Shown here piece by piece: positions 28,985 to 32,767 of a stretch of 64,000 bases of DNA. A program made the translations under genes and the position numbers. The notes under the pieces were generated by a model, which was given only the letters and a program-made list of their open reading frames with translations, did not search any database and had not been told where the DNA came from. The DNA is from Oscillospiraceae bacterium (GTDB lineage: Bacteria > Bacillota > Clostridia > Oscillospirales > CAG-272): positions 51,495 through 115,494 of the forward strand of contig SVUA01000003.1 in NCBI GenBank assembly GCA_015063485.1, read 5' to 3'. Every line of letters begins with the position of its first letter. Position 1 is the first letter of the stretch.

Positions 28985-29520
28985 ACGAGTCCTCCTGTCA
29001 GTTTTTATGCGTATTTTTTATTTTTTTATAATATGCGCGTTCGCATATTTATTTACGTTGTAATTATAGCATACCTTTTTATATTTTTCTTGCCAAAAAA
29101 CGAAAATTTCGTGCTATTTTTTTACCACATTCTGGTGAGATCAGATATCTATTGCTTTATTACAGCCTAATTATAACACATAACGATTTGAATTACAATA
29201 GTTTTTCAAAAGCGGAGCAAAACAGCACAAACAAATACGTTTTTCACCAAAATCGGTTAAAAAAAGAAAGAAAATCGGGCAAAAAATTAAAATCCGAGCT
29301 CGTATCGTATAAACAAAACGGATACAAAAAAGCCTTGTGGAAGTAATTAGCCATACAAGCAGAGAATAACCCCACAAGTAATAAAGCAAGCCACCACAAG
29401 ACTTTTCTTTATAGATACAAGAGCCACAAGTAAAAAGAAAAAGCCTTGCAGAATTATCTTCTACAAGACTTATTTCTATATCTGTTCAGCTTTTATTATT
29501 AAAATAATAATGGTTTAAGC

Positions 29521-29552
29521 CTGTTGGAACGATTGAGTGGGAATGATGTGTT
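29521..29552 (+). pseudogene. Relic of a guaA 3' end (KPVGTIEWE stop)
   Basis: aag cct gtt gga acg att gag tgg gaa tga = K P V G T I E W E *, same peptide as the C-terminus of guaA at 31763. Confidence 0.8.
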
Positions 29553-29677: not shown

Positions 29678-29690
29678 TTATTCCCACTCG
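29678..29690. repeat. Putative att direct repeat TTATTCCCACTCG
   Basis: Identical to 31763-31775, which begins at the guaA stop codon. Confidence 0.65.
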
Positions 29691-29916
29691 CTTAAATTAG
29701 CATTATATTGAGTAAATTTAGGTATTTTCGCGCGGTTTTTCGGGGGATTTGACCGCTATTTTCCGCCTGTCTATGGAGTCTGCGAAAAAACGGTATCAAA
29801 TTGGTATCACCGATACCACCCGAAAACACACTTTCTCTGTTTGCTTTATTATACTATACGTGTAGTATACTTGCTTGATACTCCTCTTGCTTTTATTATT
29901 TTATTGTTTTTTACAG

Positions 29917-30309
29917 TTACACAATTGCTGATACCTCTGAAATGCCGACATCCCAAGTAAGTGTTTTTTTGTAATACATGAGTTCATAACATTTTCCTGG
30001 ATAAATGATATGATGAATCGTATTTGATGACATTAACATAGAGAATCGCACACAAAATGTAATTTCTGTTGGTTTAGTAATATTGATAGAGCGAGCTGTT
30101 TCTCGGTCAATTTTTGCCAATTCTTTACCTGTTTTAGCGTCGCATACAATAGCATATTTAGCACTTCTATCTTTGGAAGTGAATTTTAGCATTGTTGGAG
30201 TAGTTGCGGTGTTAGTATTAACTCCTTTGATTGGATAACCACAGTTGGGACAAGCACTCGCTTGATTTGAAACTTGTTTTCCACATTCTGGACACTTAAT
30301 AAGAGCCAT
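29917..30309 (-). CDS. Zinc-ribbon domain protein
   Basis: CPECGKQVSNQASACPNCGYP. Confidence 0.8.
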   Translation of the reverse strand: MALIKCPECGKQVSNQASACPNCGYPIKGVNTNTATTPTMLKFTSKDRSAKYAIVCDAKTGKELAKIDRETARSINITKPTEITFCVRFSMLMSSNTIHHIIYPGKCYELMYYKKTLTWDVGISEVSAIV

Positions 30310-30480
30310 AATTACATCCTTCCTAAAGCAAAATATTGTATTGCTTTTAATTCAAAACATAGTTTTTCAGTTCGCTTTATTATACAATGAAAATGGAATA
30401 ATTACAAGAGTTTTTGCTAATAAATCAAATCTTTTTTGTTTATTCTTAATTTTGATTATTCATAATCCACCATACTCTTT

Positions 30481-30915
30481 TCAATCTTGCATTGCACGGC
30501 GAATGTTAACATCTTCCATATCATTAAAAACTTGATATAATCTATCAAACAAAGCATCTATTTCTTCTTTGTTACATCCATTAAACCCAAGAGCTTCATA
30601 GTCATAACATTGTGCCATTTTTTGCAAAGCAGAAATGACTCTATACAATGCTAAATCCATATCGTAAGAGTCTAAGTATACGCCTCTAATGTTCTGATAT
30701 CTTTCGACGATTGAAGCATATCGCTCGATATACATTTTTACATCTGAAACCGAATTTACATCTTGCCACTGCAACCGAACATTTTCGCAATCTCGCTTCC
30801 ATTGTCTTTTCATATCTTTGTCATTGCCCCAACAACTGTCAAGTTTGTGTTTTACATTATATTTATCGTTAAATTCAGTTAATTTTTCTTTGATATAACT
30901 TTTTATATCATTCAT
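30481..30915 (-). CDS. Hypothetical protein in guaA-adjacent island
   Basis: 144-aa ORF, island context; no recognised family. Confidence 0.55.
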   Translation of the reverse strand: MNDIKSYIKEKLTEFNDKYNVKHKLDSCWGNDKDMKRQWKRDCENVRLQWQDVNSVSDVKMYIERYASIVERYQNIRGVYLDSYDMDLALYRVISALQKMAQCYDYEALGFNGCNKEEIDALFDRLYQVFNDMEDVNIRRAMQD

Positions 30916-30933
30916 AGAAAACCCTCTTAATAT

Positions 30934-31422
30934 TTATTTCATATAATCGGCGCAAGCCTTTTCAAGCAGAAGAAAATCGTTGCAGCGCTTGGCGAGAGAT
31001 GAAGCATCGCCCTCCTTGATTTTAATCTTATAAACGTTCTGCGCGTTCTTCCAAATCTTCTCTTGGATTGACTTGATATAACGGTACTCGGCGAGAAGCA
31101 AAGCGCGGTAGTGCGGATCACGCTCACTTCTGATATCAACGTACTTGGTTTCGCTCAGCGGCACCGGGAACATATTGTTCAGATTGATAACGGCATAGTC
31201 CTTGATCTTAATAAAATCAAGTCCTTCCTTCATAAGCTTGTGCTTGTCCTTAAACGAGGAAAGCGGCGCGAAGTAATCAAAACCGTTGATTCGCAAAACG
31301 ATACCGATATATTTTCTCTCGTTCTTCTGCCCGGACTTCTTGTTCTGAAATAGATGCGGAGCATATGCTGAGAGATATGTAATATAGTTTGCGTTAATCT
31401 CGTAAAGCTTAAGGTTGTCCAT
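30934..31422 (-). CDS. Type III toxin-antitoxin system ToxN/AbiQ-like endoribonuclease toxin
   Basis: LKLYEINANYITYLSAYAPHLFQN...RKYIGIVLRINGFDYFAPLSS...VINLNNMFPVP...YRALLLAEYRYIK; GGAGGACTCA-ATG start, shorter than the ORF-track start. Confidence 0.85.
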   Translation of the reverse strand: MDNLKLYEINANYITYLSAYAPHLFQNKKSGQKNERKYIGIVLRINGFDYFAPLSSFKDKHKLMKEGLDFIKIKDYAVINLNNMFPVPLSETKYVDIRSERDPHYRALLLAEYRYIKSIQEKIWKNAQNVYKIKIKEGDASSLAKRCNDFLLLEKACADYMK

Positions 31423-31443
31423 TGAGTCCTCCAAAATAGCAAA

Positions 31444-31468
31444 TGAGGGCAAGTGTGCCTTGCCCTCA
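31444..31468 (-). terminator. Attenuator hairpin between antitoxin RNA and toxin
   Basis: TGAGGGCAAG-GCACA-CTTGCCCTCA perfect 10-bp stem followed by TTTGCTATTTT on the minus strand. Confidence 0.85.
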
Positions 31469-31578
31469 TCACATAACTTTCGCATTCTGAGTAGCGAAAC
31501 ACTCACTTGTAACTTTCTTGAAAGAACCAAGAGAAGTTCGCTTAGTAAGTTTCTCATTTAGGGCTGAGATACACCCAC
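31444..31578 (-). ncRNA. Putative type III antitoxin RNA (ToxI-like), two 36-nt degenerate repeats plus a partial third
   Basis: Minus strand GAAA(C/G)TTA recurs at 31553, 31517 and 31481, exactly 36 nt apart, between promoter and attenuator. Confidence 0.75.
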
Positions 31579-31584
31579 ACTTAT

Positions 31585-31613
31585 ATTATAACCTTTTTAT
31601 GCTGTTTTGTCAA
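31585..31613 (-). promoter_or_regulatory. Consensus sigma-A promoter for the toxin-antitoxin operon
   Basis: TTGACA-17 nt-TATAAT on the minus strand. Confidence 0.88.
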
Positions 31614-31762
31614 CACAAAATGGATATTTTCAATAAATCAACGACAAAAATTTTCACATTCCTGCCGTTGTTTATTATTCTCTTTGGTATCAGAACGGTA
31701 TCAAAAATCCGTTTGAAGTGCCGAAAATCCTTGATATATAAGGCTTTTTAGACTTCTGTTTA

Positions 31763-32767
31763 TTATTCCCACTCGATAGTACCAACGGGCTTCGGCGTAA
31801 GATCATAAAGAACTCTATTTATACCCTCAACCTCGGCGGTGATGCGCGCGGTGATCTTATGGAGCACAGCGTAAGGGATCTCCTCGATAGTTGCGCTCAT
31901 TGCGTCCTTGGTATTTACGGCACGGATTATTGCGGGCCAACCCTCATATCTGCTCTCGTCCTTAACACCAACGCTCTTTACGTCGGGAACAACTACGAAA
32001 TACTGCCATACTTTCTCTGCAAGACCATTCTTATCGAACTCATCGCGCAAAATAGCATCAGCCTCACGAAGAGCATGAAGTCTGTCTCTCGTGATAGCGC
32101 CAAGGCAACGAACGCCAAGTCCGGGTCCCGGGAACGGCTGACGGTATACCATTGCGTGAGGAAGTCCGAGAGCCTCACCTACAACTCTTACCTCGTCCTT
32201 AAAGAGAAGCTTAACAGGTTCAACAAGTCCATCGAACTTAAGGTCCTCGGGAAGTCCGCCGACGTTGTGGTGCGACTTTACAGCCTTTTTACCCTCTGCC
32301 TGCTTAATGCTCTCGAGTATATCGGGATAAATAGTTCCCTGCGCGAGATATGCAACTCCGTCAAGCTTTCTTGCTTCGTCCGCGAATACATTTATAAATT
32401 CCGCACCGATTATCTTTCTCTTCTTTTCGGGGTCTGAAACACCTGCGAGAAGATCGAGGAAGCGGTCAGTAGCATCTACGTACACGAGGTTCGCGTCAAG
32501 CTGATTCGTGAAAAGCTCAACGACGTTTTCGGACTCATTTTTACGCATAAGACCGTGGTTTACGTGAACGCACACAAGTTGTTTGCCGATAGCCTTAATA
32601 AGAAGTGCGGCAACGACGGAAGAATCCACTCCACCTGAAAGGGCGAGAAGGACCTTTTTGTCACCTACCTGCTCACGAACCTCGCGGATCTGTTCCTCAA
32701 TAAACTTATCGGCGAGCTCCTTGGTTGTAATACGTTCCATTGTTTCGGGGCGCTTGTTGTTATCCAT
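31763..32767 (-). CDS. guaA: GMP synthase ATP-pyrophosphatase subunit (no N-terminal glutaminase domain)
   Basis: LALSGGVDSSVVAALL PP-loop, AQGTIYPDILES, QPFPGPGLGVRCLG, KPVGTIEWE C-terminus; 334 aa. Confidence 0.92.
   Translation of the reverse strand: MDNNKRPETMERITTKELADKFIEEQIREVREQVGDKKVLLALSGGVDSSVVAALLIKAIGKQLVCVHVNHGLMRKNESENVVELFTNQLDANLVYVDATDRFLDLLAGVSDPEKKRKIIGAEFINVFADEARKLDGVAYLAQGTIYPDILESIKQAEGKKAVKSHHNVGGLPEDLKFDGLVEPVKLLFKDEVRVVGEALGLPHAMVYRQPFPGPGLGVRCLGAITRDRLHALREADAILRDEFDKNGLAEKVWQYFVVVPDVKSVGVKDESRYEGWPAIIRAVNTKDAMSATIEEIPYAVLHKITARITAEVEGINRVLYDLTPKPVGTIEWE

Follow-up and report, generated by a model that had tools for sequence, protein, structure and literature searches.

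In the window, a stretch of 64,000 nucleotides from an Oscillospiraceae bacterium, the interval from guaA to a small cargo gene carries on its minus strand a promoter, a 107-nt RNA region, a hairpin, a GGAGG sequence and a 162-aa open reading frame. The promoter, TTGACA-17-TATAAT (31585..31613), matches the consensus at 12 of 12 positions and is kept in close relatives, and the predicted transcription start (~31578) lies directly 5' of R1, the first module of the antitoxin. Between antitoxin and toxin stands an attenuator hairpin that resembles an intrinsic terminator with a T-rich tail (31442..31470); its arms, ATGAGGGCAAG and CTTGCCCTCAT, form 11 perfect pairs (a scanner counted 12 pairs over 31470-31442), slightly better than the perfect 10-bp hairpin claimed in an earlier sequence-only reading of this DNA. 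The promoter, the Shine-Dalgarno GGAGG (31428..31432, read from the sequence) and the 162-aa frame (31422-30934) named in that reading are all present at the coordinates given for them. The order of promoter, antitoxin, Rho-independent attenuator and toxin in the window is that of the ToxIN family.

The 162-aa frame, toxN (30934..31422, minus strand), encodes an endoribonuclease of the ToxN/AbiQ family. The search against PF13958 (ToxN_toxin), proposed earlier as a check on a ToxN/AbiQ-like protein, returned 160.2 bits against a cut-off of 25, and the AbiQ model of PADLOC gave 128 bits; only the ToxN_toxin and AbiQ models match this toxin, with no match to CptN or TenpN. In sequence searches it matches PDB entry 4ato (E=3e-20) and also 2xd0, 7d8o and 4glk. 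An AlphaFold2 model of the protein from a 36-sequence alignment (pLDDT 90.8, pTM 0.86) compares with the four solved ToxN/AbiQ structures at TM 0.75-0.81, with other structures far lower. The catalytic positions of ToxN_Ec are K33, T52, S53 and K55 (PMC8860590). Their counterparts in the window toxin are R36, S55, S56 and K58, of which R36, S56 and K58 are invariant and S55 is kept in more than 90% of the sequences in the 36-sequence alignment. The change of K33 to arginine is likewise found in E. coli clusters 4 and 5, and AbiQ has a serine in place of T52. Family HMM, active site, fold, operon layout, pseudoknots and attenuator agree with the type III, ToxN/ToxI-like assignment made from the letters alone, and the operon is almost certainly a ToxIN-type toxin-antitoxin system.

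Upstream of toxN, three H-type pseudoknot units follow one another on the minus strand, their parts given here in the order S1, loop, S2, S1', loop, S2'. Module R1 (31546..31576) consists of the pseudoknot GGGU-GUA-UCUCA-GCCC-UAAA-UGAGA (31576-31552) and the tail box GAAACUUA (31553-31546); R2 (31510..31539) of GAAC-UUC-UCUUG-GUUC-UUU-CAAGA (31539-31516) and GAAAGUUA (31517-31510); and R3 (31474..31504) of GAGU-GUU-UCGCU-ACUC-AGAA-UGCGA (31504-31480) and again GAAAGUUA (31481-31474). All three share the ToxI fold pattern, with an S1 of 4 bp, an S2 of 4-5 bp and an xAxUUA tail, and the last S2 pair of R3 in the window is U-U. The boxes reported earlier as lying 36 nt apart, GAAACTTA at 31553 and GAAAGTTA at 31517 and 31481, do follow one another in exact 36-nt steps, a spacing that falls within the ~34-38 nt of ToxIN H-type pseudoknot units. 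The count of two full repeats that accompanied them does not hold, because the boxes had been taken as unit starts. The three GAAANUUA boxes are instead the 3' ends of units, with R1 upstream of the first box, where no unit had been recognised before, so that three pseudoknots precede them. The description of a minimal, divergent two-repeat system must be revised likewise, since the modules are complete and three in number, and their divergence is old and conserved rather than reduced or degenerate. In a pseudoknot scan, none of 1000 dinucleotide shuffles of this stretch attained the combined three-unit score, and three units of any kind appeared in only 10 of 1000. The pseudoknot-free minimum-free-energy fold, which is more stable than that of shuffles, pairs the ends of R1 otherwise and R2 with R3, and the pseudoknot fold therefore rests on comparative evidence. 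The automatic finder of unit chains over-calls in AT-rich upstream sequence, and it served only as a guide, the results resting on the curated alignment. An Rfam search matched no family to the window antitoxin, nor to homo-repeat ToxI control loci; because the controls were missed as well, this search is uninformative and was dropped as evidence.

The comparative evidence comes from 89 ToxN loci, collected by scanning 85,462 prokaryote genomes once and viral contigs once. R1, R2 and R3 occur in the same order in 61 of these loci, giving with the window 62 loci and 54 distinct antitoxins. In the alignment of these 54 sequences, standard pairs fill 99.8% of the S1 and S2 cells in R1, 99.6% in R2 and 90.5% in R3, the shortfall in R3 being due to its last S2 pair; pairs 2-4 of S1 in R2 are changed on both sides in 17, 15 and 13 of the 54 loci. 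A separate alignment of 31 sequences is 99.8% paired, has six pairs changed on both sides and gives a covariation of 0.153 against 0.080 in shuffles (0 of 500). Although such shuffle statistics can be inflated by relatedness, slid controls, which preserve relatedness, are only 36-54% paired. In structural register, the same module is 81-86% identical between loci, while modules within one locus average 54-60%, and those of the window are 50-67% identical to one another. Ordinary tandem repeats show the reverse pattern, with identity within a locus above that between loci. By these comparisons, R1, R2 and R3 are orthologous units across loci, and we consider it very probable that selection has maintained these three heterotypic modules as the antitoxin. 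A covariance model of the antitoxin, searched in ~535 genomes, gave matches above 80 bits in 11, of which 10 precede toxN, complete in nine and represented in G078 only by its start, where the contig ends. The remaining match (L157, G450:C122:473-585) has antitoxin, terminator, RBS and ATG, lacks toxN and has broken stems in all three modules. This copy is a decaying orphan antitoxin, and the loss of its stems where the toxin is missing supports an RNA selected through the toxin.

Three other readings of the upstream region have to be weighed against this evidence. The low identity between modules, 0.50-0.67 in the window, and the blank result of Tandem Repeats Finder would both be expected of an ordinary tandem-repeat antitoxin in decay. 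We rejected such a degenerate array and hold it to be highly improbable, because three modules are kept with compensatory changes in 54 distinct loci, whereas true decay, as in the toxin-less G450 copy, breaks the stems of every module; the arrangement has long been kept across many gut bacteria. A structured leader that regulates toxN in cis, as a riboswitch or attenuator and without any RNA antitoxin, would fit the 5' position before the attenuator hairpin, but three serial ToxI-like pseudoknots with ToxN-type boxes adjoin a ToxN gene here, and antitoxins stand at homologous positions in characterised systems (PMC5086642). We regard this as very unlikely, if slightly less so than decay. Least credible of all is a coding role, in which the region would give ToxN an N-terminal extension or act as its leader peptide. 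A 207-aa frame starting at 31557 is indeed open in the window and in one relative, L003, yet stops in the toxN frame occur in 59 of the 61 relatives, indels of 1-4 nt between modules shift the toxN frame among relatives, and the placement of promoter and attenuator also argues against translation. We rejected this protein-coding reading, in line with the earlier warning that the 31557 start would misread RNA as protein, and the open frame is best taken as a coincidence of the closest relatives.

Such an antitoxin escapes the usual means of detection. Tandem Repeats Finder (score 30) reported no array in the window and none in any of the 61 three-module relatives; it was positive in 39 of 143 surveyed loci, including AbiQ of pSRQ900 (35 nt x 2.9) and an E. 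coli ToxIN (38 nt x 2.9). Detection by this program has been used as a criterion for type III systems (PMC8860590), and a non-repetitive form of the antitoxin is therefore easily missed. The tandem array of like repeats that counts among the ToxIN criteria is absent from the window antitoxin, which is type III by its toxin, layout and fold and not by repeat identity. The tree, built from 124 ToxN proteins, has a clade of 78 (support 98/88) into which every one of the 58 three-module rows falls, together with 13 of the 14 remaining heterotypic rows, the latter including Treponema loci with three different unlike modules (L060, L061, L064 and L085) and two-module loci (L073-L077 and L080). Also inside this clade are L078 and L083 with two near-identical repeats each, and the groups adjoining it are mostly homo-repeat; the bootstrap of the tree is unsettled, which leaves the number of origins uncertain. 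Outside the three-module group, the closest branch from the window's own family is L004, with two R1-like modules and R3. Two-module loci in the wider clade (L074-L080 and L105) and those with near-identical repeats indicate that this toxin type does not depend on three unlike modules. The ToxN loci L074, L076, L077 and L080 have two unlike modules only (GGUAACGCUCUACC... and GACUACUCUUGGUC...) and possibly form a 2:2 complex. In L158 (G451:C26 16004-19079), a two-module antitoxin before toxN is joined on the same contig by two further solo copies, of which the one ~260 nt upstream has its own promoter-like sequence and a terminator-like hairpin and no toxin gene directly behind. In another locus, on a viral contig, a drum RNA (RF02958, 71 bits; L094:2123-2258) lies ~0.9 kb upstream of the ToxN gene.

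The operon shares with the ToxIN systems of Pectobacterium atrosepticum, Bacillus thuringiensis and E. coli (2xd0/2xdb, 4ato and 7d8o) the ToxN fold and active site, the order of promoter, antitoxin, attenuator and toxin, the ~36-nt units able to form H-type pseudoknots and the A-rich boxes between units. In contrast to these systems, in which one unit is repeated, the units of the window differ in sequence, stand in a set order with one copy apiece and escape Tandem Repeats Finder. Known ToxI arrays have 36 nt x 5.5 or 34 nt x 2.9, and E. coli clusters have 3-5.6 repeats (PMC5086642, PMC8860590). AbiQ/antiQ of Lactococcus lactis pSRQ900 (4glk) is similar in its toxin family, in the serine at the nucleophile position (Ser51 in AbiQ) and in its near-three-unit antitoxin, but antiQ consists of nearly identical repeats of 35 nt x 2.8-2.9 (Tandem Repeats Finder 199 on L140). 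CptIN of Eubacterium rectale is also a type III system with a pseudoknot antitoxin from a gut clostridium, and it differs in its toxin family, its 45-nt repeats and its 2:2 assembly (PMC4627078). The antitoxins of Clostridioides phage pCD1602_4 and of related viral contigs (L143, L090 and L092) also combine more than one pseudoknot type, but they alternate two repeated types, unlike the three single-copy modules described here. These alternating ToxI arrays (L090:1-248, L143 and L092) run A-B-A-B-A or A-B-A, and those of L090 and L143 remain visible to Tandem Repeats Finder. The toxin, the layout and the pseudoknot fold are thus already known from the ToxIN family, and it is the single-copy heterotypic antitoxin that lies outside the repeat criterion. 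The literature that we searched, which did not extend to the main 2012 type III survey, contains no description of a single-copy heterotypic ToxI, and its ToxI/ToxN papers make no mention of degenerate, divergent, imperfect or non-identical repeats.

The best explanation, which we consider probable with good confidence, is a functional ToxIN-family operon in which three non-identical ToxI pseudoknots, strung together in fixed order, make up the antitoxin. The xAxUUA tail is present after R1 in 46 of 54 loci, after R2 in all 54 and after R3 in only 13. Among the A-rich sites cut by known ToxN enzymes are AA^AU and GAA^AU (PMC8860590). Two internal boxes would suffice to release three modules because R1 starts the transcript and R3 ends near the attenuator, and the three modules per transcript equal the 3:3 stoichiometry of the solved ToxIN complexes. 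Transcription would begin at R1; judging from the layout, most transcripts would end at the attenuator and give an excess of antitoxin, and readthrough would give ToxN. From the conservation of the boxes and the known specificities of ToxN enzymes, ToxN would then cleave the precursor in the two A-rich boxes that follow R1 and R2. The three modules would keep ToxN inactive, most simply in a closed ring that holds three ToxN and a single copy each of R1, R2 and R3, until phage infection or loss of the cassette cuts the supply of antitoxin and frees ToxN, by analogy with relatives. As the modules are too unlike for recombination or slippage, their number would stay at three.

That the modules assemble one of each per ring is, by analogy with the solved complexes, a possibility to which we give somewhat less than an even chance, and two alternatives compete with it. 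In one, the modules are functionally equivalent, their divergence is selected only against repeat loss by recombination or slippage, and the rings are random mixtures. Copy number does vary in homo-repeat relatives (1.9-4.2) and is always three in the heterotypic loci of this group, and L078 and L083 manage with two like repeats. However, every module retains a sequence and loop letters of its own from one locus to the next (0.81-0.86), beyond the needs of pairing, which suggests module-specific contacts, and we think equivalent modules unlikely, though worth taking seriously. In the other, the precursor stays uncut and a single RNA of three linked pseudoknots wraps three ToxN, the divergence reflecting fixed positions 1, 2 and 3. 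This would agree with the unchanging number and order of modules throughout the 54 distinct loci, with the loss of the cleavage-like box after R3 in most loci and with the abundance of partly processed ToxI forms in ToxIN_Pa (PMC5772629). Against it stand the near invariance of the boxes at the two internal junctions, their likeness to the sites cut by ToxN enzymes, and the separated repeats in the solved ToxIN complexes that the consulted papers describe, and we judge an uncut precursor to be the less likely of these two alternatives. Taken to the whole large ToxN clade, the proposal that a repeat antitoxin was replaced by three specialised pseudoknots, which form an ordered, asymmetric 3:3 ring from one transcript, is slightly more tentative than the one-of-each ring itself.

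The toxIN operon lies at the guaA end of a ~2.1-kb cassette between direct repeats of GAGTGGGAATAA (window 29678-31774). The attL-like copy (31763..31774, minus strand) forms the last codons of guaA and is followed by the left end of the cassette (31762-31635), which is shared in other genera. The attR-like copy of this 12-mer (29678..29689, minus strand) closes the right end (29858-29678), which is conserved; past it, homology to relatives ends. Behind toxN lie a 144-aa cargo frame (30481..30915, minus strand) that is also present in L003 and L012, matches nothing in Pfam or PADLOC and is swapped for other genes in related cassettes, and then a 130-aa cargo frame with an N-terminal zinc ribbon (29917..30309, minus strand; PF13248). 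Other genera have the same two ends at guaA, and there too toxIN lies directly inside the left one, but different genes fill the space from toxN to the right end; the DNA common to cassettes of different genera is ~90% identical. In a genus-mate that lacks ToxN, a sigma-factor-like gene comes after the same left end. Within the ~2.1 kb no integrase gene was seen, and the cassette looks like one moved by an integrase in trans, for which toxIN is plausibly the addiction module. Just past the right end, a 29-bp fragment (29519-29547) that resembles the guaA 3' end (83% identical) lies inverted and may mark the border of another element.

Both the definition of type III antitoxins and the search for them have relied on tandem repeats, and a conserved non-repetitive form implies that many stand unrecognised beside annotated ToxN genes. 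Three unlike natural pseudoknots for one toxin make the rules of ToxN-RNA recognition, the order of ring assembly and the reason for repeats open to experimental test. A compact, integrase-less cassette at guaA that carries toxIN suggests an addiction role in very small mobile elements of gut clostridia. The ordered, asymmetric ring, if true, would be the first type III complex that is both ordered and heterotypic, and it would represent a class that repeat-based discovery has missed.
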